Of a stretch of DNA of 64,000 nucleotides, positions 18,666-36,506 are shown piece by piece; position 1 is the stretch's first letter; each line of letters starts with the position of its first letter. The stretch covers positions 1 to 64,000 of the IMG/VR virus record IMGVR_UViG_3300037258_000374, one strand, 5' to 3'. Position numbers and translations under genes: made by a program. The notes under the pieces were generated by a model. That model saw only the letters and a list, made by a program, of their open reading frames with translations, had not been told where the DNA came from and did not search any database. The stretch comes from a virus.

Positions 18666-18671
18666 ACGCGC

Positions 18672-18677
18672 ACCCTA
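18672..18677 (-). promoter_or_regulatory. TAGGGT -10 box of the leftward early block
   Basis: TGATAGGGT followed by a 6-nt spacer to the ATG at 18665. It faces the rightward gene at 18761; the ~95-bp divergent region is the main early control point. Confidence 0.6.
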
Positions 18678-18760
18678 TCAGGAGGGCCTGACATCGGACC
18701 GCCATCGCCATGGCTAGGCGCCATGTTCCAACGTCAGACCGTTGTGGTAACTCCGTGGGC

Positions 18761-22167: not shown

Positions 22168-23220
22168 ATGAGTTACACGAAGCTGTTCGGCAGCATCATC
22201 GGATCGACGATCTGGCGTCAGTCTCTCCACGTAAAGGTCGTGTGGATCACCATGCTCGCGATGAAAGATCAGGACGGCATCGTTGAGGTGTCGCTCCCCG
22301 GCCTTGCGCATCTTGCTGGTGTAACCCTGGAGCAGGCCACCGAAGCGATTCGTGATCTGATGGCGCCTGACCCCCATTCGAGCACCAAGGATCGCGAGGG
22401 TCGCCGCATCGAAGAGGTCGATGGCGGGTGGCGAGTTCTGAATCACTTCAAGTACCGGGACAAGGAAGACCAGGACGAGAGACGTCGCAAAGATGCGGAA
22501 AGACAGCAAAGGAAGCGTGGGCGTGGGCGTCACGCCCTGTCACGGACAGTCACGGACAGTCACGGTGTGTCACGCGTGGTCACGCCATCAGATACAGATA
22601 CAGATCCGGAACAGGACTCTATATCGGTTCCGGATCGGGCCTTAAGCCCTTTCAAGCTTCCGGATCCGGATCGTGGGCCCCTGCGAGATCTAGTACAGGC
22701 GCCCCCTCCGGTTGATCGCTCCGCCGCGCGCGACTCCGGCCGCCGCATTCCAGCCGCTCCCGCGCTCCCAGCCGCGTCCGCAGGCCCGGACGCGCCGTTG
22801 CCGCCGGCAGCCCCGCGCACGGCAGCGCGGCTCGTGGCGCTCTTCGTGGAGCTCGTCAACGCGGCTCGCGCGCGGGTGGCCGAGCACCACCGCGTGCAGC
22901 TGCGGCCGATCTACGAGCAGGGGGTAGGAGCCCCCGAGTTGCTGGCGCGCATCCGAGGCGCGCCCGATCCCGAGGCCGAGGTAAGGCACGCGATAGCCGC
23001 CGCCGAGGCGCAGGCGATCAGGGACCCTGACGCGGCGCGCTGGCTGAGCTGGTCGATCGCGGAGCCGAAGGCATGGCGCGCGCATCTCGCCGCCGCGCCA
23101 GCGCGCACGCGCAGCAAAGCCGGACGAAGCGAGCCAGTCCGCCGCTCCGGTGCCGAGGCCTCCGCGGAGGCTGCCGAACTCGGTGTCGACATGAAATCCT
23201 ACGGCGAGGAGGACGACTGA
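22168..23220 (+). CDS. Primosome-type replication initiator
   Basis: 350 residues. The first ~100 have the winged-helix look of phage replisome organisers (TIWRQSLHVKVVWITMLAMK, LPGLAHLAGVTLEQATEAI). A charged linker encoded by the 10-bp repeats, an Ala/Pro-rich linker and a C-terminal helical domain follow. GGAG lies 4 nt before the ATG. It is coupled to the DnaC-like gene (TGATG overlap), so it probably opens the origin and recruits the loader. The repeats inside its own gene are the likely binding site. Confidence 0.75.
   Translation: MSYTKLFGSIIGSTIWRQSLHVKVVWITMLAMKDQDGIVEVSLPGLAHLAGVTLEQATEAIRDLMAPDPHSSTKDREGRRIEEVDGGWRVLNHFKYRDKEDQDERRRKDAERQQRKRGRGRHALSRTVTDSHGVSRVVTPSDTDTDPEQDSISVPDRALSPFKLPDPDRGPLRDLVQAPPPVDRSAARDSGRRIPAAPALPAASAGPDAPLPPAAPRTAARLVALFVELVNAARARVAEHHRVQLRPIYEQGVGAPELLARIRGAPDPEAEVRHAIAAAEAQAIRDPDAARWLSWSIAEPKAWRAHLAAAPARTRSKAGRSEPVRRSGAEASAEAAELGVDMKSYGEEDD
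22529..22588 (+). repeat. Six 10-bp GTCACG iterons inside the initiator gene
   Basis: Six consecutive 10-nt units, each beginning GTCACG (endings CCCT, GACA, GACA, GTGT, CGTG, CCAT), with no gaps. One helical turn per unit puts the cores on one face of the DNA. The same core and period recur at 35863. Confidence 0.8.
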
Positions 23221-23894
23221 TGGCGAGCGAGCGCGAGAACAAGCCGGTGACGGCCGCCGAGGCTCTACAGCGCGTGCTGTCCGGGCTGCCGATGCCGGAG
23301 GTCGACGGCGCTCGCCCGGATTTCGAGATCGAAGATCCCGTCGATCCGATCGCAGAGATCGCCGACATGCGCGCTAGGCAGATGCGAGCGAAGCTCGAGG
23401 TCTTCGGCTGGCCGACACGCGCGCTTGAGATCGCGGCCGCTGCCGATCTCGAGCGGCCGGCGCTGAAGGCGATCCGAGGCTGGGATCACCGCAGCGGAGG
23501 AGCGCTCGTGATCAGCGGCGGCATCGGCGTCGGAAAGACCGTCGCGGCGGCGTGGATCGCCGCCGACCGCGGACTGCGCTGCAGCTTCCTTCGGGCCGCA
23601 GAGTTTGCGCGCACATCGCGCTACGACGCCGAGGCCTTCGGGGCCGTGCTCGGTGCTGCTGCGCTGTGCCTCGACGATCTCGGATCGGAATGGGCGGACG
23701 AACGGGGTTCCTTGCGCGTAAGCCTCGACGAGCTGATCGACCGCTTCTACGCAGAGCGGCGCGTGCTCATCGTGACCACGAATCTCGGCGTTGCCGAACT
23801 CACTCAGCGCTACGGCGAGCGCGCGGTCGATCGCCTCCGCGAGTGGGCGACGTGGGCGCACGTCGGCGGCAAGAGCATGCGAGGCCGCAAGTGA
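23220..23894 (+). CDS. DnaC-like helicase loader ATPase
   Basis: 224 residues. Walker A GGIGVGKT (100-107), Walker B LDDLGSEW (151-158) and a later TTNL (sensor-1-like) place it with DnaC/IstB-type AAA+ ATPases. The N-terminal ~80 residues probably contact helicase or initiator. The start overlaps the initiator stop. A replicative helicase gene was not found, so host DnaB is the likely partner. Confidence 0.82.
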   Translation: MASERENKPVTAAEALQRVLSGLPMPEVDGARPDFEIEDPVDPIAEIADMRARQMRAKLEVFGWPTRALEIAAAADLERPALKAIRGWDHRSGGALVISGGIGVGKTVAAAWIAADRGLRCSFLRAAEFARTSRYDAEAFGAVLGAAALCLDDLGSEWADERGSLRVSLDELIDRFYAERRVLIVTTNLGVAELTQRYGERAVDRLREWATWAHVGGKSMRGRK

Positions 23895-24241
23895 CCGCCG
23901 TGCTTACAACGCCGTGCGGCGAGTGCCTGTGCTGCCAGGCCGGGAAGCGGTGCGCGCGGATGCTGATGCTGTCGCCGAAGGACAACAAGGCGCTCGCGAA
24001 GGTGTCGCGCATCGCGGGCCCGACTCCTGGCGAGCGCAACATCGATCTTCGCCCTCGCGCGATCGTCGAGGAGCGGCAGCGTCACGCCGACGAGCCGACG
24101 ATCACGGCGAAGTGCTCGCGATGCGGCGACGACATGAAGGTGCTCGCGTTCATCGCGCACTCGATGAAGCTGCGCGGGATCCCATTGCCGCCGTGCGAGT
24201 ACTGCCGCGGCGCCGCGCCGGAAAGGGCGGACCTTCGATGA
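23891..24241 (+). CDS. Zinc-binding hypothetical protein
   Basis: 116 residues from GTG 23891 (GTGA overlap). Two cysteine clusters: CGECLCCQAGKRC at the start, and CSRCGDDM ... CEYC near the end. Function unknown. Confidence 0.65.
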   Translation: MTAVLTTPCGECLCCQAGKRCARMLMLSPKDNKALAKVSRIAGPTPGERNIDLRPRAIVEERQRHADEPTITAKCSRCGDDMKVLAFIAHSMKLRGIPLPPCEYCRGAAPERADLR

Positions 24242-24589
24242 TGGATCTTGGTGATGATCAAGGCTCTGCGCCGATCGATGCGCTGCGCGCGCCATTCCCA
24301 TGGTTCGGCGGCAAGAGCCTCGCGGCGCCGTTGATCTGGCGAGCCTTCGGCAACGTGCGAATTTTGTCGAGCCATTCTGCGGATCGCTCGCTGTTCTTCT
24401 CGCGCGCCCGCACGCGCCGAAGGTCGAAACGGTCAACGACAAAGACGGATTCATCGCGAACGTATGCCGCGAGGATGGACGCAGATCGCGTGGCGCTCGA
24501 AAGGCAGCGGCAAGAACCGCGGCAAAGAACGGATCTGGTTCTCGCCGCTCTGCGAAGCCTCACTCGCGCAAGGGAGTCTCTTCTGATGG
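24238..24589 (+). pseudogene. D12-class adenine-N6 methyltransferase remnant
   Basis: Three family-typical pieces lie in three frames. FPWFGGKSLAAPLIW is at the start; NFVEPFCGSLAVLLARP and VNDKDGFIAN follow after a one-base loss near 24360; then comes a jump to IAWRSKGSGKN ... RIWFSPLCE and a terminal QGSLF before the TGA. Most of the catalytic centre (the DPPY region) is gone. An intact Dam-like protein would be about 250-300 residues, so roughly half the gene has been deleted. Confidence 0.75.
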
Positions 24590-25014
24590 GCCGGCAACCA
24601 ACGCTCGTGCACATCTGCGTCGACTGCGGCGCTCGGGGCCAGCTCGGCGCGCTGCAGGCAAAGCGTGCAGGATGGAAGCTGTGGATCGGCGGCGGGTGGT
24701 GTCCGAAGTGCTACCCAAAGCACGAACCGCAGATCCGAACGCCGCAGCCGACGGGCACGCAGCCAGATCCGGTCTACGTGCGATGTTCGGCGTGTGGACG
24801 AGCCCCGCTACGCGGTGCGGAGATGACCCCCGACGCGTGGTGGCCAACGTTTCACTGGCTAGCGACCGAAGAGAACAAGCTCGCGCTCAAGGAGCGCAAG
24901 CGTCCTATCCCGCTGTGCCCGGGCATCCACAGGCCGGGCGCCGTCGTCAAGGTCGAGCGCGTTCCTCTCGACGAGGAGCAAGGAGACCGCGATGCGCCTG
25001 TTGAGGCACCATAG
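24586..25014 (+). CDS. Hypothetical protein with two zinc ribbons
   Basis: 142 residues from ATG 24586, overlapping the end of the methyltransferase remnant. CVDCGARGQLG ... CPKCYPKHEP and CSACGRAPL ... CPGIH give two metal sites. Function unknown. Confidence 0.6.
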   Translation: MGRQPTLVHICVDCGARGQLGALQAKRAGWKLWIGGGWCPKCYPKHEPQIRTPQPTGTQPDPVYVRCSACGRAPLRGAEMTPDAWWPTFHWLATEENKLALKERKRPIPLCPGIHRPGAVVKVERVPLDEEQGDRDAPVEAP

Positions 25015-25351
25015 TCCGATGTCAGACGAGAACGGTATGCATCAAGCGATGGCCGATTTGCTTGATGACGACGCGGAGGGCTGGGCACGCCTTCAAGGCT
25101 TGTTCGCGATGCTCGCCCTTCCCCTCATCCACGATAGCGACGGTCGCTTTCGCAAGCGGATCATCGAGGTCGAGATCTCGGCTGGCCGATGGATAGCGAT
25201 CGATGGCGCCGCGCTCGAGATGCAGCGGCTGATCGTGTGGTCGGGGATGAACGGTACGCGCAGCACCTATGAGTTCCGTCGCTCCGAAGGCGTCCCGCAG
25301 TGGCGCGCTCCGAAGGAGGAGTCGCGCGCGAAAGGATTCATCGTCCCGTGA
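24992..25351 (+). CDS. Hypothetical protein
   Basis: 119 residues; AGGAG lies 7 nt before the ATG at 24992. Helical N-terminus, beta-rich middle, basic end. It overlaps the HAD-family gene by 4 nt. Function unknown. Confidence 0.65.
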   Translation: MRLLRHHSPMSDENGMHQAMADLLDDDAEGWARLQGLFAMLALPLIHDSDGRFRKRIIEVEISAGRWIAIDGAALEMQRLIVWSGMNGTRSTYEFRRSEGVPQWRAPKEESRAKGFIVP

Positions 25352-25893
25352 TCAGGATCGTCTTCCTCGACTTTGACGGCGTGCTGAACAGCACCGACTG
25401 GTACAAGCGGCGCCCGAACAAGGTCGAGTGGGCCGCGCGCCTCGGCATCTCCGAGGAGCAGTTCTGGAACGACCGCTTCGAGTGGGCTCTGCGATCGATC
25501 GACCCGGACGCGGTCGCGGCGCTTAACGATCTCGTGACGAAGACGCAGGCGCGCGTCGTCATCAGCAGCACGTGGCGCACGATGTGGTCGCTGCCGAAGC
25601 TCGAGAAGATACTCCGGTGGTTCGGGTTCGCTCACCATCTCGTCGGCGCGACGCCAGACCAGTGCGAGCAGGTCGATGGTGGACTGTTCGTCGGCGCGCG
25701 CCGCGGCAACGAGATCGCGGCGTGGCTCACCACGATGTTCGGAGCAGTCCGACCGGCAGATGTCGAGTTCGTGATCATCGACGACGACTCCGACATGGGC
25801 CCGCTCTGCGACCGGCTGTTCAACACGAGCCACGATGTCGGCCTCCGCGTGGGCGACGTCGAGGCGATCGCGGCGATGTTCGAGGTCGCGTGA
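25348..25893 (+). CDS. HAD-superfamily phosphatase-like protein
   Basis: 181 residues. Motif I LDFDGVLN (nucleophile Asp), motif II VVISSTWR and motif IV VIIDDDSDMG match the HAD domain seen in phage and RNA-repair-associated proteins. Could act on nucleotide or nucleic-acid phosphates; substrate not inferable. GTG start overlaps the previous stop. Confidence 0.85.
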   Translation: MIRIVFLDFDGVLNSTDWYKRRPNKVEWAARLGISEEQFWNDRFEWALRSIDPDAVAALNDLVTKTQARVVISSTWRTMWSLPKLEKILRWFGFAHHLVGATPDQCEQVDGGLFVGARRGNEIAAWLTTMFGAVRPADVEFVIIDDDSDMGPLCDRLFNTSHDVGLRVGDVEAIAAMFEVA

Positions 25894-26306
25894 CCGCCTG
25901 CGCCAAGTGCGGCTACGACTCCGATGCCGTCGTCGTGGCCTCGTGGTCGTTCTTCATTGACCGCGATCCGCCGTCGCTCAACAGCCGCGTAATCAACCTC
26001 GGCGCGACCCGCTGGCGATACGCGAAGGAGCGCGATGCGTGGGGATGGGAGTTTCGCGCGGTGCGACTGATGAAGAAGATCCCGCCAGCGGAGGGCCTGC
26101 GCCGAGTGACGCTGACGCGCTGCTACTACGGGCGCCAGCAGGAGCGAGATCGAGACAACCTCGCGGGCGGCATGAAAAATTGCGTCGATGCCATGGTGCT
26201 GGAGCAACTGCTAACAAGCGACGACCCGGCGCACGCGGAGATCCACTACCAACAGGAGCGCGGCTCGCCGACCGGCCTGCGCGTGCTCATCGAGGAGCTA
26301 GCGTAA
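25890..26306 (+). CDS. RusA-like Holliday-junction resolvase
   Basis: 138 residues. An N-terminal CAKCGYD is followed by the RusA signature: PSLNSR near the start, then RDRDNLAGGMKNCVDAMV and a later TSDDPAHAEIHY. The aspartates in DxDN and DD match the metal site. It would cut recombination or replication junctions. The Cys pair is an extra. Confidence 0.75.
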   Translation: MTACAKCGYDSDAVVVASWSFFIDRDPPSLNSRVINLGATRWRYAKERDAWGWEFRAVRLMKKIPPAEGLRRVTLTRCYYGRQQERDRDNLAGGMKNCVDAMVLEQLLTSDDPAHAEIHYQQERGSPTGLRVLIEELA

Positions 26307-26506
26307 TGGCACGAGGGAAGCTGCTCAGCGATGTCGAGCAATACGTGCTCGAGATGAACCAGCTCTGCGAGGGCGTGCTCGCGCTACGCAGACGCGGCAC
26401 GAGGATCTGGAACCGCGCAGCCCACGGCGCGCCGCCGCTGACGAACGTCGAGATCCAGAAGATGCGCGCCGCACTTAAGCGGCTGCAGACGGTGGCGCGA
26501 ACGTGA
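26306..26506 (+). CDS. Small helical hypothetical protein
   Basis: 66 residues, ATG overlapping the upstream stop (TAATG). Basic and helical. Function unknown. Confidence 0.6.
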   Translation: MARGKLLSDVEQYVLEMNQLCEGVLALRRRGTRIWNRAAHGAPPLTNVEIQKMRAALKRLQTVART

Positions 26507-26967
26507 ACCATCTCGCCGAATCGGACCGCGCGCGAGCTCGCGCGTACATCGAAGCGCGATCGATCCCGGTCCCGCACTGCGGGTGCCGCCTCTGGCTGCT
26601 CGCGCCGCGCTCGAACGGATACGGAGCAGCGACGTTCAACGGCGAGCAGTGGACGGCCCATTGCCTAGCGTATGAGGCTTGGGTCGGTCCCGTCCCGGAT
26701 GGCGCGCTCCTTGAGCACCGCATTTGCGACGAACGGATGTGCTGCGAGTGGACGCATCTGCGGCCAGGCAGCATCGCGAGCAACATGGACGACGCGGCGC
26801 GGAAGCTGCGGCTTGGGCAGAAGCTGAACGCCGTCCAGGTACGCGCGATCCGCGAGCGCTACGGAGCAGGCGGCGTCATCAGCCTGCGACGGCTCGCGCT
26901 CGAATACCGCGTATCGAAGACGTCGATCGCGATGATCGTTCGCCGCGAGCATTGGAGCTACGCGTGA
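26503..26967 (+). CDS. HNH endonuclease
   Basis: 154 residues. GCRLW ... AHCLAYEAWVGPVPDGALLEH with H/CD/CC/H ligands, then SNMDDAARK, match phage HNH_3-type nucleases. The C-terminal ~50 residues (LNAVQVRAIRERYG ... SKTSIAMIVRREHW) form a helix-turn-helix typical of homing HNH enzymes. Here it is integrated in the operon (4-nt overlaps), unlike the two antisense HNH genes. Confidence 0.82.
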   Translation: MNHLAESDRARARAYIEARSIPVPHCGCRLWLLAPRSNGYGAATFNGEQWTAHCLAYEAWVGPVPDGALLEHRICDERMCCEWTHLRPGSIASNMDDAARKLRLGQKLNAVQVRAIRERYGAGGVISLRRLALEYRVSKTSIAMIVRREHWSYA

Positions 26968-27146
26968 GGACGTGGCTCTTCTGGCTCCTCGTGCGCGGCG
27001 GCGTTTTGTATGTGCTGAACTGGCTGTGGTTCAACGAGGCCGAGGCGACGATCGCGCTGTTCATCGTCTTCTCGATGTTCCACGCGATGACCATCTACGA
27101 GCGGCGCGCCGAGGAGCGCGAGCGCTGGAGGACGATCGAACGATGA
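26964..27146 (+). CDS. Small membrane protein
   Basis: 60 residues from GTG 26964. Two hydrophobic segments (WLFWLLVRGGVLYVLNWLW and ATIALFIVFSMFH) are followed by a charged tail. Could be a holin or other inner-membrane protein, but no lysis gene is adjacent. Confidence 0.65.
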   Translation: MRTWLFWLLVRGGVLYVLNWLWFNEAEATIALFIVFSMFHAMTIYERRAEERERWRTIER

Positions 27147-27334
27147 GCAGAGCATCGACCAAGCCGATCGCGAGCGACCTCTTCGCAGCGGGCTGGCTCT
27201 CGCCCAACGCTGCGGCCGACGCTCTCGGTATCACCCTGCGTCAGCTCGAGCTTCGAGCGCGCCGCCGCGAGATCAAGCGGCGCGAGCTCGCGCCGGGCAC
27301 CGGCCTGTATCTTTACGAAGTGGCGCGGCGATGA
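27143..27334 (+). CDS. Small helix-turn-helix protein
   Basis: 63 residues. WLSPNAAADALGITLRQLELR is a clear MerR/excisionase-like HTH, followed by basic residues. ATG overlaps the upstream stop. Possible regulator or excisionase-like factor. Confidence 0.65.
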   Translation: MSRASTKPIASDLFAAGWLSPNAAADALGITLRQLELRARRREIKRRELAPGTGLYLYEVARR

Positions 27335-27783
27335 CCGAGCCGGCTCGCGAGGCAATCAACGCGGTTCGCCGCGCGCTGTCGGGCTACGTGTTCCAGGTCG
27401 ACGACGAGGCGAGCGTTCAGCGGCAAGTGCTCCAGGCGCTCGGCGAGCGCGGAGTCGAAGTGCTAGGCAGCGAAGTGATCGCGCGCGTGCCGGAGAAGCG
27501 CGAGCCCGCGCCTCCGCGGCTGCGTAACATGCCTGCACCGAAGGGTGGACGATACGACATCTTGGTGTGCCACGCCGGCGTGCGCCTCGTGCTGGAGTTG
27601 AAAGTCTCGGGCTCGGCGCCAGCCGTCGAGCGCCAGGCGCAGCGCTACGCCTTGACGCATGGGATCGATGCCGTGGCGCTGGTGACGACCTCCAACCGCC
27701 TCGCGCGCGGGGTCGCTGCGATCGAGGACGACGAGATGCTCGGCGGTAAGCCGTTCGGCGTCGTGCTCCTCCGGTGCTTCTGA
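27331..27783 (+). CDS. PD-(D/E)XK nuclease
   Basis: 150 residues. GGRYDILVCHAGVRLVLELK supplies the D ... E-x-K of a PD-(D/E)XK site, followed by a helix with QAQRYALTHG. Sits directly before the SNF2-like helicase, the usual phage pairing of a VRR-Nuc-like enzyme and helicase. Likely a DNA-junction or end-processing enzyme. Confidence 0.75.
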   Translation: MTEPAREAINAVRRALSGYVFQVDDEASVQRQVLQALGERGVEVLGSEVIARVPEKREPAPPRLRNMPAPKGGRYDILVCHAGVRLVLELKVSGSAPAVERQAQRYALTHGIDAVALVTTSNRLARGVAAIEDDEMLGGKPFGVVLLRCF

Positions 27784-29666
27784 TGCGGCCGGGCAGCATC
27801 TCGCTCGATGGCGCAGGCGACTTCGTCGTCCGCTGTCCGCCGCACGTCGCGATCAAGCTGCGGCGCGTGTTCGGCGGCGTGCAACGGCGCGGTGCCGGCT
27901 ATTTCACTATCAGCGCGACGTCGGGCAATGCGTACGAGCTGCAGTGGTTCCGGCAGCGGTATCCGCTCGATCTGGAGCAGGACGCGGCCGACAGGTTCGA
28001 AGCTCTGCGCCTAGCCGAGGAGCATCGGCTCGCGTCGATCGCCGAGCTCGAGGCGGCCGACTACATCCCTCGGAAGTTCGATCTCGCGCTGCCGCCGCGC
28101 GAATACCAGCGCGTCGCGGCGGACCTCGCGCTGCGCACGGGCTCGCTGCTGGTCGCCGACGAACTCGGGCTCGGCAAGACGATCACCGCGATCTGCGCGC
28201 TGACGGCGGAGGGCAAGCTGCCGGCGCTCGTCGTGACGATGACGCACCTGCCGAGGCAGTGGGAGGTTCAGCTGCAGAAGTTCGCGCCGTCGCTGCGCGC
28301 GCATCGCATCCGCAAGGGAACGCCGTACGACTTCGCGAAGATCAAGTTCGAGACGGACGCGAGCGGCAAGCGCATGCGCATCCCGCGGCCGGGCATCCCA
28401 GACGTGATCATCTGCAACTACCACAAGCTGTGCGGATGGGCCGATACGCTCGCGCAGCTATGCAGGTCGGTCGTCTTCGACGAGGTCCAGGAGCTTCGGC
28501 ACGCCGGGACGAACAAGTACATCGCGGCGCACGCGATCGCCGGCAGCGTCCCGCTCCGAATCGGGCTGTCGGCGACGCCGATCTACAACTACGGCGCCGA
28601 GATCTACTCGGTCGTCGAGGCGATCGCGCCCGGCGCGCTCGGCACGCGCAAGGAGTTCTACGACGAGTGGTGCGGCGGCGCGAACCCTGGCTCCGACCAG
28701 GACGCCCGGAAGGTCTGCGTCGCGGATCCGGTCGCGCTCGGCACGTATCTGCGCGAGTCCGGCCTCATGATCCGCCGCACGCGGAAGGAGGTCGGTCGCG
28801 AGCTGCCGCCGCTGACCATCGTGCGGCATGCGATCGAGGTCGACCCGGCGCGCATCAACGAAGCGACGGCGGACGTAGCCGAGCTCGCCTCGCGCGTGCT
28901 CGCGCGCACTGGCAGCAACTTCGAGCTGATGAAGTGGTCCGGCGAAATCGACTACCAGATGCGCCAGGCGACCGGCATCGGCAAGGCCGGCGCGGTGATC
29001 GACTTCGTGCGGATGCTCGTCGAGGCCGGTGAGCGCGTGGTGCTCTACGGCTGGCATCATGAGGTCTACGCGCTGTGGCGCTCGGCACTCGACAAGCACG
29101 GCATCTCCTTCGCGATGTACACGGGCAGCGAGAGCGAGACGCAGAAGTCTGATAGCGTGCAGGCGTTCATCGATCACAAGGTCAACGTGCTGATCATCTC
29201 GCTGCGTGCTGGCGCCGGGCTCGACGGGCTGCAGCACGTCAGCCGCACGGTGGTGATCGGCGAGCTCGACTGGTCTCCGCAGGTCCATCAGCAGAACATC
29301 GGCCGCGTCTATCGCGATGGCCAGCTCGAGCCGTGCGTTGCGTACTACCTCGTCGCCGAGGAGGGCAGCGATCCGGTGATCGCCGACGTGCTCGGGCTGA
29401 AGGATGCGCAGGCGACCGGCATCATCGATCCTGATCGCGCGGGCGTCGCGCATCTGGTCGGCTCCTCCGAGAGCCACGTGCGAAAGCTCGCCGTCGAAGT
29501 GCTGCGCCGGCGCGGTATCGAAGTGCCAGACGAACAAGACGACTGCTCGCAAGGCGATGATCGCGGCTGCAGCATGCACGGCGATCCCGGCAATTGCCCA
29601 GCGCCACCGGAGCCGTCGCTCGAACTGGCTCCGCAACTCGGCCTAGCGCTAGGGTCCTCGCGATGA
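27783..29666 (+). CDS. SNF2-like superfamily 2 helicase
   Basis: 627 residues. Motif I DELGLGKT (126-133), II DEVQ (233-236), III GLSATP, and C-terminal motifs LIISLRAGAGLDGLQ and QNIGRVYRDGQ mark an SF2/SNF2 ATPase. The ~100 N-terminal residues resemble a HARP-like extension. It starts by TGATG overlap with the nuclease and probably remodels forks or junctions with it. Confidence 0.87.
   Translation: MRPGSISLDGAGDFVVRCPPHVAIKLRRVFGGVQRRGAGYFTISATSGNAYELQWFRQRYPLDLEQDAADRFEALRLAEEHRLASIAELEAADYIPRKFDLALPPREYQRVAADLALRTGSLLVADELGLGKTITAICALTAEGKLPALVVTMTHLPRQWEVQLQKFAPSLRAHRIRKGTPYDFAKIKFETDASGKRMRIPRPGIPDVIICNYHKLCGWADTLAQLCRSVVFDEVQELRHAGTNKYIAAHAIAGSVPLRIGLSATPIYNYGAEIYSVVEAIAPGALGTRKEFYDEWCGGANPGSDQDARKVCVADPVALGTYLRESGLMIRRTRKEVGRELPPLTIVRHAIEVDPARINEATADVAELASRVLARTGSNFELMKWSGEIDYQMRQATGIGKAGAVIDFVRMLVEAGERVVLYGWHHEVYALWRSALDKHGISFAMYTGSESETQKSDSVQAFIDHKVNVLIISLRAGAGLDGLQHVSRTVVIGELDWSPQVHQQNIGRVYRDGQLEPCVAYYLVAEEGSDPVIADVLGLKDAQATGIIDPDRAGVAHLVGSSESHVRKLAVEVLRRRGIEVPDEQDDCSQGDDRGCSMHGDPGNCPAPPEPSLELAPQLGLALGSSR
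29650..29655 (+). promoter_or_regulatory. TAGGGT -10 box
   Basis: TAGGGT and a 7-nt spacer lead to the ATG at 29663; it lies inside the 3' end of the helicase gene. Confidence 0.6.
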
Positions 29667-30232
29667 TCGCAGCGCTGATCCGGTGCCTCGCGCTCGCCGC
29701 CCGCGCCCATGCGGCGTGGCCGGAGTACTCGATCGCGGACGTAACCGCCGCATCCTGCGCGGCGGTTGGCGCCGCCGATCCGGGCGTCCCGGCCGAGCTC
29801 CTGCTCGCAATCGCGCAGCACGAGAGCGACCTGCATCCCAATGCGGTGAGCTGGGTCGCGACCAGCGGCCGAAGGGTGGATATCCTGTGGACGCGCGACC
29901 GCGCGCCGCCTGAAAACAAAGCGTTGGCATGCGGTTACGGGCAGACGATTGTCCACACCAGCCGCGCGTGCGCCGATGTGATCGCCGATCACGGTGGTCT
30001 CGTGACCGCGGAGCACGAGCTCGCCGCGTGGCTGCGGTCGCCGCTGAGCGGCGGTTCTCTGCGTGTCGCGCTCGGCGGCTACGCCGGCGGGATCGCTGGC
30101 GCGCGCGCGGCGCGCGAGGGTATCGACGCTCTGGCGGTCCGCTTCGCCGATCTCTTCATCGCTCGCGCGAGACGGTTAACGATGCAGTCGGTGACTGTCA
30201 TAGTAGGGTCCAATCAGTGGAGGAATCGATGA
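29663..30232 (+). CDS. Lytic transglycosylase-like muralytic protein
   Basis: 189 residues. A hydrophobic N-terminus (MIAALIRCLALAARAHAA) looks like a signal peptide or anchor. ELLLAIAQHESDLHPNAVS carries the catalytic Glu of SLT-type enzymes, followed by CGYGQTIVHTS. Probably cleaves peptidoglycan in lysis or entry. The leaderless box at 29650 fixes the start and separates it from the helicase. Confidence 0.75.
   Translation: MIAALIRCLALAARAHAAWPEYSIADVTAASCAAVGAADPGVPAELLLAIAQHESDLHPNAVSWVATSGRRVDILWTRDRAPPENKALACGYGQTIVHTSRACADVIADHGGLVTAEHELAAWLRSPLSGGSLRVALGGYAGGIAGARAAREGIDALAVRFADLFIARARRLTMQSVTVIVGSNQWRNR
30204..30209 (+). promoter_or_regulatory. TAGGGT -10 box before a 170-nt leader
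   Basis: TAGGGT, 7-nt spacer, then GTG at 30217 that opens only a six-codon ORF (M/V-E-E-S-M-I). The next gene starts at 30388, so the transcript would have an unusually long leader containing hairpin element R1. Confidence 0.5.
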
Positions 30233-30246
30233 TCTAACCGCACCCC

Positions 30247-30310
30247 GCACCGCGTCGCAGCGCAGCGCTGCGCCCCGCAGCACAGCGCAAAGCAGAGCCC
30301 TAACGGGTCA
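30247..30310 (+). repeat. Hairpin element R1
   Basis: GC-rich region with a 14-bp perfect palindrome (GCGCAGCGCTGCGC at 30260-30273) that ends in GAGCCC-TAAC-GGGTC, a short stem with a UAAC loop. Its end matches elements R2 and R3 further on. The rest of 30233-30387 is non-coding leader. Confidence 0.6.
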
Positions 30311-30387
30311 ATCGGCCAGCGAGTCCAGTACCGACATTATGTCCGTCAGCGACTCCAGCGCCCCAAACGACAGCAAGAGGAATCTCA

Positions 30388-30972
30388 ATGCAGACGGTAC
30401 GCGCAGTTCTGAAATCCATCAGTCCCTATTCGCAGTCCAAGTATGTCGACAAAGACGAGCACCCCAAAAACGGCAAGGAGAGCGCCGACGACTACGAGAA
30501 GCGCACGTGGCAAGCGCGAGTGCATCTCGACGACAAAGGCGCTCCGTACATGCCGCCGATGGCGCTGAAGAAGTCGCTCGACGCCGCGAGTGCCTACCTC
30601 GGGAAGATTCCCGGCGAGCGCAATGCGACCTACGTGAAGCGATTCAAGTCTGGGCTGCTCGTTACCGACAACATCCCGCTCCGATCGAACGGCAAGCCGG
30701 TCACGAAGATCGACGACTTCGAGGGCGAGTGGCTATTTCTCGATGCTGGTGGCAAGGCCGGCCAAGGATCAACGCGCGTCAAACGCCGCATGCCTCGGCT
30801 CCGCGAGTGGGAGGTCACAGCAACGATCTATCTGATCGACGAGATCATCACACTCGATGTGCTGCGCCGCGCCCTCGAGGATGCCGGCCGCTTCGTCGGC
30901 GTCGGTCGCTTCCGCCCGCAGGTCGGAGGATTCTACGGTCGCTTCCTCGTCAAATCGCTGGAGGCGGTATGA
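30388..30972 (+). CDS. Putative RAMP/Cas7-like fold protein
   Basis: 194 residues. SPYSQSKY near the start, PPMALKKSLDAAS, and a C-terminal glycine-rich GVGRFRPQVGGFYGRF resemble the beta-sheet and G-loop layout of RAMP (Cas5/6/7-like) RNA-binding proteins. Similar proteins seem to occur in other phages without cas genes. No other cas gene or CRISPR array is present. A GAGG precedes the ATG by 7 nt. Flanked on both sides by hairpin elements R1 and R2/R3, so RNA binding is a reasonable guess; identity unproven. Confidence 0.6.
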   Translation: MQTVRAVLKSISPYSQSKYVDKDEHPKNGKESADDYEKRTWQARVHLDDKGAPYMPPMALKKSLDAASAYLGKIPGERNATYVKRFKSGLLVTDNIPLRSNGKPVTKIDDFEGEWLFLDAGGKAGQGSTRVKRRMPRLREWEVTATIYLIDEIITLDVLRRALEDAGRFVGVGRFRPQVGGFYGRFLVKSLEAV

Positions 30973-31463
30973 CGTTCAAGAGCGGTCGCCGGCCGATCGA
31001 AATCGTTTCGAATCGTCAACCTCACAAGCTCGCGATCATCGCGCTCGTGGTCACGACCAAGCCAGGCGATATCATCCACGATCCAGAGATCGATCGCGCA
31101 ACGAACTCCACGCTACAGGTCTGGAGCAGCGCCATGCAGTCTGCTCGGCGCGTGCTCGCCGTGGAGCACGGCATCGAGCTCAAGCGCGAGACGAAGCTCG
31201 GATATCGGCATCTCAAACCGGAAGAGAAGCCTGGCGCGGCAGATCGTCAAATGAACCGCGCGCGCAACCGCGTGAAGACCGCGAAGCGAATCGTCGATTC
31301 GATGACACAGGGCCAGTTTGACGAGCTGACGCCAGCCAATCAGTCGGTGCACGTCCAGACCCGCGCGCGCGTGCTCTTGACGCATGACATGATGTCGCCC
31401 AAGCGTCAGCGCGAGATCGCGGTCGCGGCGAACTCGAAGGAGAGGCCGATGCTGCCCAAGTAG
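30969..31463 (+). CDS. Partner of the RAMP-like protein, unknown function
   Basis: 164 residues, very basic, ATG overlapping the previous stop. An N-terminal beta region (LAIIALVVTTKPGDIIHD) precedes a helical basic C-terminus (MNRARNRVKTAKRIVDS). Translational coupling suggests it acts with the upstream protein. No family recognised. Confidence 0.6.
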   Translation: MTFKSGRRPIEIVSNRQPHKLAIIALVVTTKPGDIIHDPEIDRATNSTLQVWSSAMQSARRVLAVEHGIELKRETKLGYRHLKPEEKPGAADRQMNRARNRVKTAKRIVDSMTQGQFDELTPANQSVHVQTRARVLLTHDMMSPKRQREIAVAANSKERPMLPK

Positions 31464-31478
31464 AATCGACGATGCGCA

Positions 31479-31537
31479 GCGCTTCGCCTCGCATCGCGTC
31501 GCTCCACAACGCACTGCAGAGCCCGCAAGGGTCACCA
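31479..31537 (+). repeat. Hairpin element R2
   Basis: 59 nt, aligned without gaps to R3 (about 80 per cent identical by eye). It ends GAGCCC-GCAA-GGGTCACCA, a stem with a GNRA loop. Confidence 0.65.
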
Positions 31538-31556
31538 ACGATTTCATCGCCACGCG

Positions 31557-31615
31557 GCGCGTCGCTCCGCATCGCGGCGCATCGCAACGCATCACAGAGC
31601 CCGCAAGGGTCACCA
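31557..31615 (+). repeat. Hairpin element R3
   Basis: 59-nt direct repeat of R2, starting 78 nt after it, with the same GAGCCC-GCAA-GGGTCACCA end. Non-coding region 31464-31651 holds R2, R3 and the next promoter. Confidence 0.65.
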
Positions 31616-31638
31616 CGCAGCCGACGCCGACAATGAAG

Positions 31639-31644
31639 TATCGT
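31639..31644 (+). promoter_or_regulatory. TATCGT -10 box
   Basis: TATCGT and a 7-nt spacer lead to the ATG at 31652. Confidence 0.5.
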
Positions 31645-31651
31645 CGGCGTC

Positions 31652-32098
31652 ATGAAACCGCCCGAAGAGCTGGTCGCAGCGTTCCGCGCGCTCGTCGACA
31701 AGGCGAGCGAAGGGATAGCGATGCTGCTGGTCGACAATGGATTCGACGCCGCGACGATGCGCGTGCTCGCGGCGTGGCCGCATCTCGAGCATGGGTGGGA
31801 GCAGCCGAAGCGGCCGTGCCCGAGCTCGATGCCCACGCCTGCCGCATGGCGCTGGCTTGTCAGCGGACACCGATACGAGGCGCAGCAACTCGCCGACGCC
31901 GCCGGCGTAACGATTGCGATCGCACGCGCGAAGGCCACGATGCTGCTCGGCGCTCGGCTCGCGCTGCCGGACGGGACGATCACGTCCAGCGCGAGCGCCG
32001 CTCTCGCAGCGCATGCACGGCGCGCGCTGGGGCTCAAGTCGAAGGCCAAGGACAAGCAGTCGCGCGGTCGAATCGCTAGCGATGACGATGCGAACTGA
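31652..32098 (+). CDS. Hypothetical protein
   Basis: 148 residues, leaderless ATG. Helical, with WRWLVSGHRYEAQQLADAAG and GVTIAIARAKATMLLG suggesting an HTH-like part, and a basic C-terminal tail (KSKAKDKQSRGR). Function unknown. Confidence 0.65.
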   Translation: MKPPEELVAAFRALVDKASEGIAMLLVDNGFDAATMRVLAAWPHLEHGWEQPKRPCPSSMPTPAAWRWLVSGHRYEAQQLADAAGVTIAIARAKATMLLGARLALPDGTITSSASAALAAHARRALGLKSKAKDKQSRGRIASDDDAN

Positions 32099-32333
32099 GG
32101 CACGATGCCGATCGATGCCGTGTCCGCACAGCACGCGTCCCGATGCAGATCCGAAGTCGTGTTCGCTTTGCATCGGCGCAGTCGCGCGACCTGTGTGCCG
32201 CGATCCGATCACCGGCCTCTTCACGATCGACGGGAAGCTAGTCACCACGCGCGCGTTTCAGCCACCGACCGCATCACGCTACGCTCAGGTACTGAAGCGG
32301 CGCCGAAGCGCTGGCGAAGATCCAGACGAGTAG
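32082..32333 (+). CDS. Small zinc-binding protein
   Basis: 83 residues if ATG 32082 is used (ATG 32088 is possible). CPHSTRPDADPKSCSLC ... VCRDP looks like a zinc site, followed by a beta hairpin (TGLFTIDGKLVTTRAF) and a basic helix. Overlaps the preceding gene by 17 nt. Function unknown. Confidence 0.55.
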   Translation: MTMRTEARCRSMPCPHSTRPDADPKSCSLCIGAVARPVCRDPITGLFTIDGKLVTTRAFQPPTASRYAQVLKRRRSAGEDPDE

Positions 32334-32461
32334 TTGCGTTCGCGATCCGCTCCGGACTATCGGATGCACGGGATGCGTGAACGTCAGCGGCGGATGGACC
32401 AGCTGATCGGTGAGCTCGTGGCGATGAGGCTCCGAGTCGACGAGATGTCAGCTGCCCGTGA

Positions 32462-32467
32462 TAGGGT
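32462..32467 (+). promoter_or_regulatory. TAGGGT -10 box
   Basis: TAGGGT and a 7-nt spacer lead to the ATG at 32475. Confidence 0.6.
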
Positions 32468-32474
32468 TCGCAGC

Positions 32475-32675
32475 ATGGAAAACAAACCGACCATCGGGCG
32501 CATCGTGCACTTCCTCCACAGCGATGGAGGCAAGCGCGCCGCTATCATCACCGCCGTCCACAACGACGAGTGCGTGAACCTCGCGGTCTTCCCGCCGAGC
32601 GGTCCTTCGTACAGCGAGACCAGCGTGCTGATGGGCGCCGACGCTGGGCGCTGGTGCTGGCCGACGCGCATCTGA
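32475..32675 (+). CDS. Small beta-barrel-like protein
   Basis: 66 residues: MENKPTIGRIVHFLHSDGG ... AAIITAVHNDECVNLAVF ... WCWPTRI. The order resembles a small family widespread in actinobacteria and phages (GRIVHY ... AAIVTEV ... HWP). The leaderless box decides the start; an upstream in-frame ATG at 32388 would add a helical extension. Function unknown. Confidence 0.65.
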   Translation: MENKPTIGRIVHFLHSDGGKRAAIITAVHNDECVNLAVFPPSGPSYSETSVLMGADAGRWCWPTRI

Positions 32676-33079
32676 GGATTGCCCCGGTACGCGACACAGC
32701 CAAGCTGCTGTACGAGGCGTACATCGCCAACAGCGAGGGCCTGAACTACCAGGGCTTGCCGTGTCCGCAGTGGGATGACCTGACGCCAGCGGTGCGCTCG
32801 CATTGGTGCGCGTCCGCGATCGCCGCGACCACCGGTCAGCCAGTGATCAGCCTACGCGCGCAGGGTGTCGACTGCGGGATGTGCGAAGACAACGTGCCGC
32901 ACATCCACGTCCACCAAGCTACGCCAGCGCAGCTCGTGCTCGCGCTCGGCGAGGCTTCCACGGCCCATCGCCAGCTCGTGCTCGACAACATGGCGCTCAA
33001 GCGAAAGGTCCAGCACTGGAGGCAGCGCGCCGCTCAGCATGGCTGCAACATCGATGGCGGCGACGCGGACTGCGGATGA
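32654..33079 (+). CDS. Hypothetical protein with CGxC and HIHVH motifs
   Basis: 141 residues if GTG 32654 is the start, which is uncertain. KLLYEAYIANSEGLNYQGL, then CGMCEDNVPHIHVHQ, probably a metal site, and a C-terminal helix. Overlaps the next gene by 4 nt. Function unknown. Confidence 0.55.
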   Translation: MLADAHLRIAPVRDTAKLLYEAYIANSEGLNYQGLPCPQWDDLTPAVRSHWCASAIAATTGQPVISLRAQGVDCGMCEDNVPHIHVHQATPAQLVLALGEASTAHRQLVLDNMALKRKVQHWRQRAAQHGCNIDGGDADCG

Positions 33080-33819
33080 TCGCGTACCTGAGCCACACGC
33101 TCGGCAGCTCGAACGGCATCGATTCCGTTCGCCGACAGGACAACATCGCGAACGCGATCTCGTGGCTCGACTTCCTCGTGATGCACACGACCTGGGCGAT
33201 CACGTTGCCGTGGCTGCCGTTCGTCATGACCGAGCACGGCGCGCGAGAGGTGCATCGGCCGCGCGGTTTCGCGGACCAGATTCGCATCCTGCAACGATGC
33301 GATGCGATCGTGCTGGTCGGCGGCATTATCAGCCCACACATGAACCACGAGATCGACATCGCTCGTCGAGGCCACATCGCCATCGTCGACCTGAGCGATC
33401 TTGGACGGCATCCGCCGGACAGCGAGGTTACGGACAATGCGTTCCGAGCGCTGCTAGCCGATCGCGCCCCGCGCTGCGCTCGCCGAGCGTGCCAGCGCGC
33501 AGTAGGTGTTCGCGCGGGGCGCCGCGCCCGTGTTAGCCTGCTCGGCATGCCGACCAACGACGAGACCAAGAAGCCGGACGTGGCCGGGAACGCCCCGGGC
33601 ACGTCGCCGGAGACCAGGAAGCCGGACGTGGTAGCCGCGAGCGCGAAGGCGGTCGAGCCATCCAGGGCCGAGGCCGCGAAGCCGGCCGCGCCGGTGGCGC
33701 GCGTGATGCGCACGGACACGCCAGCGCGCCCTTCGATGAAGGCGGCCGCGCCCAAGAAGGGCGGCAGCAAGCCGCCGTGGAAGGGCGGCCACTGGAGGCA
33801 CTTCCACCCCTGGAAGTAG
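33076..33819 (+). CDS. DUF4406/deoxyribosyltransferase-like domain, open into next gene
   Basis: The first ~130 residues (MIAYLSHTLGSSNGIDSVRR ... RCDAIVLVGG ... MNHEIDIARRGHIAIVDL) resemble the nucleoside-2-deoxyribosyltransferase-like DUF4406 domain of phages. The frame has no stop before 33819, so translation would run through a promoter-like stretch into the Lys/Pro/Ala protein at 33547. Either a 247-residue fusion is made or a stop was lost between two genes. Confidence 0.6.
   Translation: MIAYLSHTLGSSNGIDSVRRQDNIANAISWLDFLVMHTTWAITLPWLPFVMTEHGAREVHRPRGFADQIRILQRCDAIVLVGGIISPHMNHEIDIARRGHIAIVDLSDLGRHPPDSEVTDNAFRALLADRAPRCARRACQRAVGVRAGRRARVSLLGMPTNDETKKPDVAGNAPGTSPETRKPDVVAASAKAVEPSRAEAAKPAAPVARVMRTDTPARPSMKAAAPKKGGSKPPWKGGHWRHFHPWK
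33534..33539 (+). promoter_or_regulatory. TAGCCT -10 box
   Basis: TAGCCT and a 7-nt spacer lead to the in-frame ATG at 33547. Confidence 0.5.
33547..33819 (+). CDS. Low-complexity Lys/Pro/Ala protein (internal start)
   Basis: 90 residues from the leaderless ATG. Repeats KKPDVAGNAPGTSPETRKPDVV in two similar halves (KKPDV, RKPDV), a Lys/Pro/Ala-rich middle and a Trp/His end (PPWKGGHWRHFHPWK). Probably disordered and basic; function unknown. Same frame as the upstream domain. Confidence 0.55.
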   Translation: MPTNDETKKPDVAGNAPGTSPETRKPDVVAASAKAVEPSRAEAAKPAAPVARVMRTDTPARPSMKAAAPKKGGSKPPWKGGHWRHFHPWK

Positions 33820-33850
33820 CGCCGCGGCGCTGATCGTCAGAGCGGCGCAG

Positions 33851-33856
33851 TAGGGT
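33851..33856 (+). promoter_or_regulatory. TAGGGT -10 box
   Basis: TAGGGT and a 7-nt spacer lead to the ATG at 33864. Confidence 0.6.
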
Positions 33857-33863
33857 CGCTCGC

Positions 33864-34481
33864 ATGTCACACGCGAAACATGCAGAGCAGATCTACGGCG
33901 CTGTGGAGCCGGGCTCGATCGAGCCGCCCGCGCCGATTCCATTTCGACCAGCGGGCGACCGCATCGTGGTCAAGCAGAACGCGCTCGACCCGATGACGGT
34001 CGGCGGCGTGATCAAACGACCAGACCGCGAGTCGGACTGGACCGCGTTTGGTGTCGTGGTCGCTGTCGGGCCCGGCGAACGCAACAAGCTCGGCGAGCGC
34101 ATCCCGCTCACGCTCAAGGTCGGCGATCAGGTCGTGTACGACTTCCGCCGCGGGCGCGAGGAGCGCGAGGTGCAGCACATCTGCGGTCCTCGGATGGTGA
34201 TCCTGCACGAGCACGAGGTCGCAGCCGTGATCGACGCCGATGACACGTGCGAGCATCCTGCGCTCACGCGGTGCACGAGCTGCGCGACGGTGATCTGCAG
34301 CGACTGCATCGAGCCCGTGCTCGAGCATCGGTTCGCGAGCAGCTACATGCGCGAGAGCGGCGCGACGTGCATGCCATGTCGTGTCGCGACCGAGGATGTC
34401 GACGACACCAACAGGTTCAAGCGCGAATCCGATTGGACCGCGCGGGACGCGGCCGGCGTGCCGGATGGCGGTCCGGCGTGA
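33864..34481 (+). CDS. GroES-like co-chaperonin fused to zinc domain
   Basis: 205 residues. Residues about 28-122 read as a Cpn10/GroES fold: FRPAGDRIVVKQ, GGVIKRPD, GVVVAVGPG, LKVGDQVVYDFRRG, ILHEHEVAAVID. A C-terminal B-box/ribbon-like zinc domain follows (CEHPALTRCTSC ... CSDC ... CMPC), then a charged tail. It may redirect host GroEL for capsid folding, as phage co-chaperonins do; the zinc module is unusual. Confidence 0.75.
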   Translation: MSHAKHAEQIYGAVEPGSIEPPAPIPFRPAGDRIVVKQNALDPMTVGGVIKRPDRESDWTAFGVVVAVGPGERNKLGERIPLTLKVGDQVVYDFRRGREEREVQHICGPRMVILHEHEVAAVIDADDTCEHPALTRCTSCATVICSDCIEPVLEHRFASSYMRESGATCMPCRVATEDVDDTNRFKRESDWTARDAAGVPDGGPA

Positions 34482-34723
34482 TGTCGTCATCGCTGATTGG
34501 CCGCATCGCGTGGTTCATCGGTGCTGAACTCGAGCACGAGCAAATCGGCCAGATCGTTGCGGTCAATTTTCGCGAGGTCGGCGCCGAGCTGCTCGTGTTG
34601 CTTGGCAACGGACGCCTTCAGGTGTGGCCGACCGATCGGGTAGAAATCAACAAGCCCGTGGAGAAGCCGTACGAGCGACCACCGCCAACGAGCATGCCTG
34701 GCTCCGACAAGAGCATAAAATGA
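34478..34723 (+). CDS. Small beta-rich protein
   Basis: 81 residues from GTG 34478 (GTGA overlap; ATG 34481 possible). Strand-rich (IGQIVAVNFREVGAELLVLL) and ends in a Pro-rich basic tail. Function unknown. Confidence 0.55.
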   Translation: MMSSSLIGRIAWFIGAELEHEQIGQIVAVNFREVGAELLVLLGNGRLQVWPTDRVEINKPVEKPYERPPPTSMPGSDKSIK

Positions 34724-35037
34724 ACGGCTACCAGACCCCGGACGGGACCCGTTACGTCATCGGGCCCGGCGGTGATCCGGTGCGCGCGCGGTTCCACATG
34801 ATCCTCGGGATGACGTGGATCGGATGGCTGAACTTCTGCGTGCTGCAGTGGTTCGGCGTGCGCCTGATCTACACCGTGCGCGACGATGGAGGCATGCGTG
34901 TCAAAGGCGCTCGGCTGCGGTGGCCGATGACGCGCTGGCACATGACGTGGGACCTCGCGGGCATCGTGCCGCTGATGTTCAGCTTGCCGGTGCTCGTGAT
35001 CGCCGCGCTGGTATGGTGGTGGGCATGCAGTATGTGA
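34720..35037 (+). CDS. Small membrane protein
   Basis: 105 residues, ATG overlapping the upstream stop. Hydrophobic stretches MILGMTWIGWLNFCVLQWF and IVPLMFSLPVLVIAALVWWW imply two membrane segments. Possible holin-like or superinfection-exclusion protein; no proof. Confidence 0.6.
   Translation: MNGYQTPDGTRYVIGPGGDPVRARFHMILGMTWIGWLNFCVLQWFGVRLIYTVRDDGGMRVKGARLRWPMTRWHMTWDLAGIVPLMFSLPVLVIAALVWWWACSM
35012..35017 (+). promoter_or_regulatory. TATGGT -10 box
   Basis: TATGGT and a 7-nt spacer lead to the ATG at 35025, inside the end of the membrane-protein gene. Confidence 0.5.
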
Positions 35038-35252
35038 TCGCCATCATCGGATTCGTTACGATCGTCTCGCTTGCGGTGTTCGCGGTCGTCCACCGCAAGC
35101 CGAGCGTGATGCACGCGCCGACTCCGATGCACTGCCCGGATGCCCTGGACAGGTCAATGGAGTGCGTGGGCGACGACCAGCGCGTGTACATCTGCGTGAA
35201 GGAGTACGGCGACGAGCAGCTCGACATCTTCTGCGCGGTGCGCACGCCGTGA
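35025..35252 (+). CDS. Small membrane-anchored or secreted protein
   Basis: 75 residues. One hydrophobic N-terminal segment (YVIAIIGFVTIVSLAVFAVV) precedes a short domain with four cysteines (HCPD ... ECVG ... ICVK ... FCAV), likely disulfide-bonded outside the cytoplasm. Next to the other membrane gene; a lysis accessory (spanin-like) role is only a guess. Confidence 0.6.
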   Translation: MQYVIAIIGFVTIVSLAVFAVVHRKPSVMHAPTPMHCPDALDRSMECVGDDQRVYICVKEYGDEQLDIFCAVRTP

Positions 35253-35398
35253 AGGTCGGTAAGTTGCCCGAGTCGCTGCCAGCGGTGCGGACGCGAGCGC
35301 TCACGTTCGACGACCTCGACGACCTGCTCCGGCAGATCCGCGAGTCGGTGAAGGCGCCCGAGCCGTGGCCTCGAGCGCCGAGACCGGTGCAGCGATGA
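35249..35398 (+). CDS. Very small hypothetical protein
   Basis: 49 residues from GTG 35249 overlapping the previous stop (GTGA). Acidic helix then Pro-rich end. Function unknown. Confidence 0.5.
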   Translation: MKVGKLPESLPAVRTRALTFDDLDDLLRQIRESVKAPEPWPRAPRPVQR

Positions 35399-35601
35399 AG
35401 CGCCTGCTCCTGCTCCGCATACTCGTGCACCTCGTGATGCGTGCGCGCTCGTACGCGATGCAGGCAGCGATGGACCTATGCGCCCGAGGCGAGCCCGTAC
35501 CCGAGTTTTTGCTGCTGTACGAGCGGGCGCTCGACTACCTGCTGACCCCCGAGTCGGCGGTGTACGGCCGGGGCGCACAGCCAACGCGCGAAGGCCGATA
35601 G
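35395..35601 (+). CDS. Small hydrophobic helical protein
   Basis: 68 residues, ATG overlapping the previous stop. Starts MKRLLLLRILVHLVMRAR and continues helical. Function unknown. The following 189 nt (35602-35790) hold no gene with a usable start. Confidence 0.5.
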   Translation: MKRLLLLRILVHLVMRARSYAMQAAMDLCARGEPVPEFLLLYERALDYLLTPESAVYGRGAQPTREGR

Positions 35602-35778
35602 CCCGCACGTCGGAGCCGGAGCCGACCCCGAGGCCGAGCCCGCGTTCGACCTCGACCTCCGGCGCTGTCCGTGCGGGTCGACTATCGGGGTGCCCGTCGT
35701 CGCATGATCCCGCTGTGCTCGATCGATGGCCCTTGAAGGGCGGAGAGCAGGCAGATCCTCGTCACGACCCGCGGTAGC

Positions 35779-35784
35779 TACTCT
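35779..35784 (+). promoter_or_regulatory. TACTCT -10 box
   Basis: TACTCT and a 6-nt spacer lead to a GTG at 35791 that opens a frame through the iterons. Confidence 0.4.
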
Positions 35785-35790
35785 GAGCGT

Positions 35791-36018
35791 GTGGCGTTAT
35801 GCCCGTCAAGTCCGGAGTGGTTTCGGCGCCACGAATCCGGAACAGACCCCATCCGTAGCGTCGTCACGCGATGTCACGCGATGTCACGCGATGTCACGCG
35901 ATGTCACGCGACGTCACGCGACGTCACGCCCGTTCCGAACAGGGCTGCGTCCGGCCTCCGCGCTGCTGCGTCGGTCCTGACCTCGCTCCGTAAGTTCGCG
36001 ATTCCTCGTTCGTGGTAG
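35791..36018 (+). CDS. Doubtful ORF across the iteron array
   Basis: 75 codons from GTG 35791, preceded by a leaderless-type box. Its middle is simply the translation of 10-bp repeats (SRDVT/CHA patterns), so coding is uncertain; the region may be an origin transcribed from this promoter. Confidence 0.3.
   Translation: MALCPSSPEWFRRHESGTDPIRSVVTRCHAMSRDVTRCHATSRDVTPVPNRAASGLRAAASVLTSLRKFAIPRSW
35863..35932 (+). repeat. Seven 10-bp GTCACG iterons, candidate origin
   Basis: Seven units without gaps: four GTCACGCGAT, two GTCACGCGAC, one GTCACGCCCG. Same core and same 10-bp period as the array in the initiator gene at 22529. Lies in the largest poorly coding stretch (35602-36056). Confidence 0.8.
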
Positions 36019-36021
36019 GGT
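36016..36021 (+). promoter_or_regulatory. TAGGGT -10-like box
   Basis: TAGGGT 35 nt before the ATG at 36057. No start codon lies at the usual 6-7 nt, so a short leader is expected. Confidence 0.4.
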
Positions 36022-36056
36022 CAGGATATCCGGACCAAGCCGGGTCAGCCGTGTCG

Positions 36057-36506
36057 ATGACCTCGAAGCCCCACAAGCCGCCTAGTGCTCGAACGCTGCG
36101 CGCGATGGAGCTGATGCGGCAGATGCGCCGGTCGGAGGCGGTGCGCGAGCAGATGGCGCAGTGGAAGATCGGCCGCACGCAGGCGCAAGAGGACATGAAG
36201 GCGGCGGAGCTGTTGCTCGCGGCCGAGCTCGTCGAGAAGCTGCCGGCCTACCGCGCCGTGAGCATCAATCGCCTGGAGCGGTTGCTGGACAAGGCCGAGG
36301 ACATCGGCGACCTGCGCGCGGCTGCGCTGCTCCAGCGCGAGATCACGCGCATCTCCGGCATCGCGGCTCCGCAGGAGATCAAGCACAGCGGCGCGATCGA
36401 CACGCGGCCTAGCGAGCAGAGCTACGCCGACCTCGAGCAGCCCGAGCTCGACCTGCTGGCCAAGATCGGCGCGATCCCTGCGCCGGCGAGCACGACCGAG
36501 CACTGA
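36057..36506 (+). CDS. Putative small terminase subunit
   Basis: 149 residues from ATG 36057 (MTSKPHKPPSART). Basic N-terminal helices, central coiled region and a C-terminal part (LRAAALLQREITRISGIAAP then IKHSGAI) resembling phage small-terminase/HTH proteins. It would recognise packaging DNA; the iteron array just upstream could matter for that too. The large subunit is 4.4 kb downstream, so the assignment is tentative. Confidence 0.55.
   Translation: MTSKPHKPPSARTLRAMELMRQMRRSEAVREQMAQWKIGRTQAQEDMKAAELLLAAELVEKLPAYRAVSINRLERLLDKAEDIGDLRAAALLQREITRISGIAAPQEIKHSGAIDTRPSEQSYADLEQPELDLLAKIGAIPAPASTTEH

Follow-up and report, generated by a model that had tools for sequence, protein, structure and literature searches.

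GTCACG iterons at two sites of a phage contig: a likely replication origin inside the initiator gene and a putative accessory site of the same initiator

The initiator gene, the two arrays and their surroundings

The phage contig studied here is 74,804 bp long with 65% GC; "the window" denotes the whole stretch that was analysed, 64,000 nucleotides in length. The features relevant to the argument are as follows.

17114..18724, minus strand: RecE-like recombination exonuclease (phrog_434, E=5e-61)
22168..23220, plus strand: ORF 22168, replisome-organiser-like replication initiator, 350 aa (PHROG 2447, Pfam matches of homologues, fold)
22529..22588, plus strand: array 1 within the initiator gene, six GTCACGnnnn iterons (cores at 22529, 22539, 22549, 22559, 22569 and 22579)
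22589..22605, plus strand: CAGATA tract (2.8 copies) directly following array 1, putative DNA-unwinding element (AT content)
22603..22636, no strand assigned: perfect 10-bp inverted repeat GATCCGGAAC / GTTCCGGATC with a 14-nt loop, just past the A-rich tract
23220..23894, plus strand: DnaC-like helicase loader directly downstream of the initiator (phrog_50, E=3e-22; phrog_3277, E=3e-15)
35520..36040 (centres of the scoring windows), no strand assigned: longest low-coding stretch of the contig by codon-usage score, holding array 2
35863..35932, plus strand: array 2, seven GTCACG units (cores at 35863, 35873, 35883, 35893, 35903, 35913 and 35923)
36012..36506, plus strand: ORF 36012, annotated start 80 bp downstream of array 2, no family match
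40959..42698, plus strand: terminase large subunit, 5 kb downstream of array 2 (phrog_38, E=7e-66)

The product of ORF 22168 has a winged-helix N-domain (about residues 1-97), a long helix (94-125) and then a linker encoded by array 1. Employing AlphaFold2, we modelled the N-domain of the family as a winged helix (pLDDT 84). In a Foldseek search against BFVD, this model matched viral models named replication initiator and replisome organizer; a fold search of the PDB gave weak winged-helix matches only (best E 0.016). The protein itself matched PHROG 2447 ('replication initiation protein') weakly (E=0.0011), and among 46 aligned homologues Phage_rep_org_N of Pfam was matched by 8 and PHROG 2447 by 5. 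The family of ORF 22168 thus has a winged-helix N-domain and family-level profile matches in common with Phage_rep_org_N / PHROG 2447 proteins, an assignment that is weak for ORF 22168 itself and rests mainly on its homologues. These results support ORF 22168 as a replisome-organiser-type winged-helix initiator with an adjoining loader gene, in agreement with the first-pass annotation, which had taken the gene for a putative initiator.

Array 1 and array 2 are 13.3 kb apart and have the core, the exact 10-bp spacing and the strand (+) in common; the positions, unit numbers and phase given for them in the first-pass annotation were confirmed. Five different spacers occur among the six units of array 1 (CCCT, GACA, GACA, GTGT, CGTG and CCAT). 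Array 2 is composed of four units of GTCACGCGAT, two of GTCACGCGAC and then one of GTCACGCCCG (spacers CGAT x4, CGAC x2 and CCCG), and because it is nearly homogeneous, its 10-bp phase may reflect tandem duplication. A count of tandem GTCACG units, which had been proposed as a check, revealed no further three-unit array in the whole 74,804-bp contig. Single GTCACG hexamers were not enriched in the window (76 found vs 70 +/- 8 expected), and in 20 third-order Markov shuffles no exact core of any kind was repeated four times at 10-bp spacing. The exceptional feature is the tandem arrangement of GTCACG, not the hexamer count. An 11-mer, ATCCGGAACAG, is found beside both arrays (22604 and 35835); we rejected it as evidence because 12% of random 240-bp pairs from the contig share an 11-mer.

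The gap holding array 2, in which short spurious ORFs are present, had been described as the emptiest stretch, and codon usage bore this out; the second-longest low-coding stretch of the contig is the array-1 region (22480-22800), despite the ORF there. The left arm carries the RecE-like exonuclease, which is compatible with recombination-dependent late replication, and DNA methyltransferases. To the right of array 2 are genes for the terminase large subunit, portal, head and contractile tail; by this gene order, array 2 stands between the metabolic genes and the structural block. ORF 36012 showed no significant match in PHROG, Pfam or NCBIfam, or in the phage collection by tblastn, and its single-sequence model was all-helical with a pTM (0.30) too low for use.

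Some other features of the contig were recorded in passing. ORF 9502-11259 (minus strand) has a ParB-like N-terminal part joined to DNA methyltransferase domains. A pair of 63-bp direct repeats (31475-31615; 83% identity, spacing 78) occupies the gap between ORFs 30339-31463 and 31633, and its second copy holds 10-bp units of the CGCATCGC type. At 37210-37433, about 25 copies of the 9-bp repeat GGCGGTCGC encode the (Ala-Ala-Val)-rich tail of ORF 36536-37537.

Arrays in homologous initiators and in other phages

Using a profile of the N-domain only, we found 103 relatives and kept 80, of which 68 were left after removal of most near-duplicates. No array was used in the profile search, but 4 of the 5 seed proteins came from the array scan. 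A 10-bp tandem array was present at most 300 bp after the N-domain in 33 of the 68 homologues, a count that includes a few hexamer tracts or misplaced cases (e.g. L110, L113 and L178) not to be taken as iterons, compared to 0 of 1,097 control windows. The cores included GTCACG, GTCAAC, GTAGAC, GTCCAC, GTCAGC, GTCCCG, GTTCAA and GTAACG, among others, and core similarity tracked N-domain identity (Mantel r=0.29, p=4e-4, a statistic that ignores shared ancestry), as expected if the N-domain reads the core. Since the core changes between homologues, a host protein was judged unlikely as the reader of GTCACG. Across 54 distinct GTCACG arrays within initiator genes, the reading frame of the first core was 0 in 20 cases, 1 in 21 and 2 in 13. 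With all three frames used, the conserved thing is the DNA, not the peptide, and a peptide-level reason for the repeat was ruled out. An A-rich tract usually follows the in-gene arrays of the homologues. The comparison of these sequences supports the in-gene array as a conserved feature of the initiator family.

At L013, L025, L074 and similar loci, which belong to one initiator group, two GTCACG arrays lie about 270 bp apart in a single gene, the first being a three-unit array situated upstream, in the portion that encodes the N-terminal region.

A scan of viral contigs for four-unit GTCACG arrays yielded 91 stretches; of the parsed arrays, 76 were inside initiator-type ORFs that form a linked set, and 18 were not. 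GTCACG was more frequent than GTCCAC (17) and GTCAGC (16), the two alternative cores scanned. The commonest in-gene unit of other phages was GTCACGCGAT, the unit present four times in array 2, and the array 2 spacers CGAT and CGAC ranked first and third among 180 in-gene spacers of those phages. From these similarities, it appears very unlikely that array 2 shares its core with array 1 by chance, and the two arrays most likely bind the same protein, the product of ORF 22168. This part of the first-pass proposal, one initiator acting at both arrays, was retained.

A distant second array is rare. In the GTCACG-selected set, 0 of 69 full records had a pair of GTCACG arrays separated by over 1 kb; the 69 include G044, which has a distant array and no intact in-gene array. 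In the profile-found set, a distant GTCACG array was seen in 1 of 31 homologue records read nearly in full, again G044, a distantly related phage in which the array lies about 10 kb from the homologous initiator, is apparently intergenic and has no A-rich tract, and in which the sites inside the gene are degenerate and differ in orientation. Many homologue records are possibly fragments, so these frequencies give a rough impression only. Searches with the initiator, ORF 36012 or the terminase returned essentially no close relatives, and Myxococcus phage Mx4 and MW202816, which have the nearest terminases, showed no GTCACG array in the parts examined.

Mx4 (L257) has two AGTCCC-type 10-bp arrays at 3684-3780, in or near gene p08, possibly a myxophage relative of this origin design. 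L046 and L064 have clusters of GTCACG sites outside genes, some in tandem and some scattered, and no detectable homologue of the ORF 22168 initiator; the clusters resemble origins or promoters of a different system.

Origin anatomy beside the arrays

AT content in 50 bp peaked at 0.54 at position 22587, which is the 99.7th percentile of the contig. The 34 nt after in-gene arrays had a mean A content of 0.41 and AT content of 0.56, compared to 0.22 and 0.42 after arrays outside initiators. After the last core, the respective values were 0.38 and 0.53 at array 1 and 0.09 and 0.24 at array 2. The A-rich tract was absent on both sides of array 2 (AT 38% before, 24% after), and the best 50-bp AT content in the array-2 gap reached the 95th percentile only. 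Since an A-rich, AT-rich tract directly follows array 1 and none is found at array 2, we place the likely origin at array 1 and take array 2 for an accessory site. The GC-skew minimum, also proposed as a check, fell at 17.3 kb and localised the origin at neither array; gene strand confounds GC skew.

Array 1 and its surroundings show four features of lambda O / SPP1 gene 38-type in-gene phage origins: a DNA-binding initiator, in-gene iterons, an AT-rich element and an adjoining loader gene. Considering the initiator family, the loader, the arrays at the same place in homologues and the A-rich tract together, array 1 is best read as an in-gene origin. Judged from its sequence, it is likely the iteron cluster of such an origin, and we regard it as one more well-supported case of an established type. 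Binding of the initiator within its own gene for feedback, as first suggested, is possible but is not needed to explain array 1.

In lambda O / ori-lambda, and in Stx phages, iterons and an AT-rich tract lie in the middle of the initiator gene and the loader gene is next, as here. Lambda has four longer iterons, each itself an inverted repeat, whereas the units described here are 10 bp long and in exact helical phase; lambda is not known to have a second array. Ori-lambda likewise lies inside the initiator's own gene (PMC7466680). The O-like gene of Pseudomonas phage MD8 is also reported to contain repeats, and the pertinent excerpt of the MD8 report, unlike the present case, describes no distant second array (PMC8508860).

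SPP1 has two origins, oriL within the initiator gene and oriR some 12-13 kb from it, and both are bound by the initiator (PMC6316719, PMC3485210). As with gp38 (initiator) and gp39 (loader) of SPP1, direct repeats in the initiator gene are followed here by the loader gene, and a second site with the same repeat is found at a distance of 13.3 kb, a likeness by layout and distance. SPP1 oriR has an AT-rich unwinding element, whereas array 2 has none. For this reason we classify array 2 as an accessory site made of iterons alone, one that would work like a part of oriR without belonging to its class.

Possible functions of array 2

On balance we consider it probable that array 1 is the origin and array 2 a non-firing accessory site of the same initiator. 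Several observations weigh against this explanation: array 2 is homogeneous, like neutral minisatellites; a second array was rare in both sets of records; the AT-rich element of oriR has no counterpart at array 2; and the GC-skew minimum lies away from both arrays, with the confounding noted above. Were array 2 a neutral 10-bp minisatellite with GTCACG in its unit by coincidence, its homogeneous spacers would be accounted for, and homogeneous GTCACG repeats without evident function do occur in bacterial genomes, outside initiator genes. However, a random, unrelated 10-bp unit carries the core on this strand with a probability of 0.0034, five-unit homogeneous repeats of the GTCACG type are very rare (53 cases in 257 Gb), and GTCACGCGAT is the favoured in-gene unit of other phages; we hold the minisatellite to be improbable. 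To about the same degree we doubt that array 2 serves as a full origin in its own right, the second of the phage. It has seven units with the core of array 1, and SPP1 sets the precedent of two origins (PMC6316719), but the low AT content after its last core (24% vs 53% at array 1) and the modest AT maximum of the gap are at odds with this. The first-pass annotation had offered the gap array as one option for the origin; that part of the proposal was changed, the origin anatomy being at the in-gene array.

The position of array 2 suggests an operator instead: bound upstream of ORF 36012, the initiator would repress or activate the structural block and so tie late transcription to replication. 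The array ends 80 bp before the annotated start of ORF 36012, in the largest gap, between the metabolic genes and the terminase/head/tail block. No sigma-70-like promoter was found in that gap, although sigma-70 may not be the promoter type of the host, and the array-2 layout was seen in no other family member, the distant array of G044 not being known to adjoin late genes; an operator is unlikely, if less so than the two preceding readings. Recognition of array 2 by the small terminase subunit as a pac/cos-type site, the other role initially proposed, has the least chance, and we do not favour it. The large terminase gene does lie 5 kb beyond array 2, and in SPP1 the pac site overlaps the small-terminase gene (PMC6316719), but ORF 36012, the putative small terminase of the first-pass annotation, matches no small-terminase family and has no detectable terminase homology, and the core of array 2 is that of the initiator gene.

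For an origin at array 1 with an accessory site at array 2, we propose the following mechanism. The winged-helix domain would bind GTCACG once per helical turn and form a one-faced filament, the adjacent A-rich CAGATA tract would melt, and the DnaC-like loader encoded by the next gene would place the helicase at array 1. Array 2 would be a second site for the initiator and, with no unwinding element, most likely does not fire as an origin. As to its function, our first choice is a roadblock like SPP1 oriR, which would stall the fork and promote the switch to concatemer-making replication; in SPP1, the fork is thought to stall at initiator-bound oriR, triggering concatemer replication (PMC3485210). 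Control of the late operon starting just downstream, or titration of the initiator, would be the next choices.

More broadly, and only tentatively, we suggest a family of phage initiators with in-gene 10-bp iterons in helical phase, in which the core sequence diversified along with the DNA-binding domain; in some members a second, melting-incompetent copy would lie about 10-13 kb away and serve as a dedicated initiator-bound switch (a fork barrier or a late-gene gate) and not as an origin. A 10-bp array after a winged-helix domain, followed by an A-rich tract, provides a sequence rule for origins in many uncultivated phages, and the natural variation of the core across homologues is a ready data set on DNA reading by these initiators. 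Should array 2 be bound and not melt, binding would be separated from firing, and this phage would allow a direct test of the long-standing idea from SPP1 that the initiator itself triggers the switch to concatemers.
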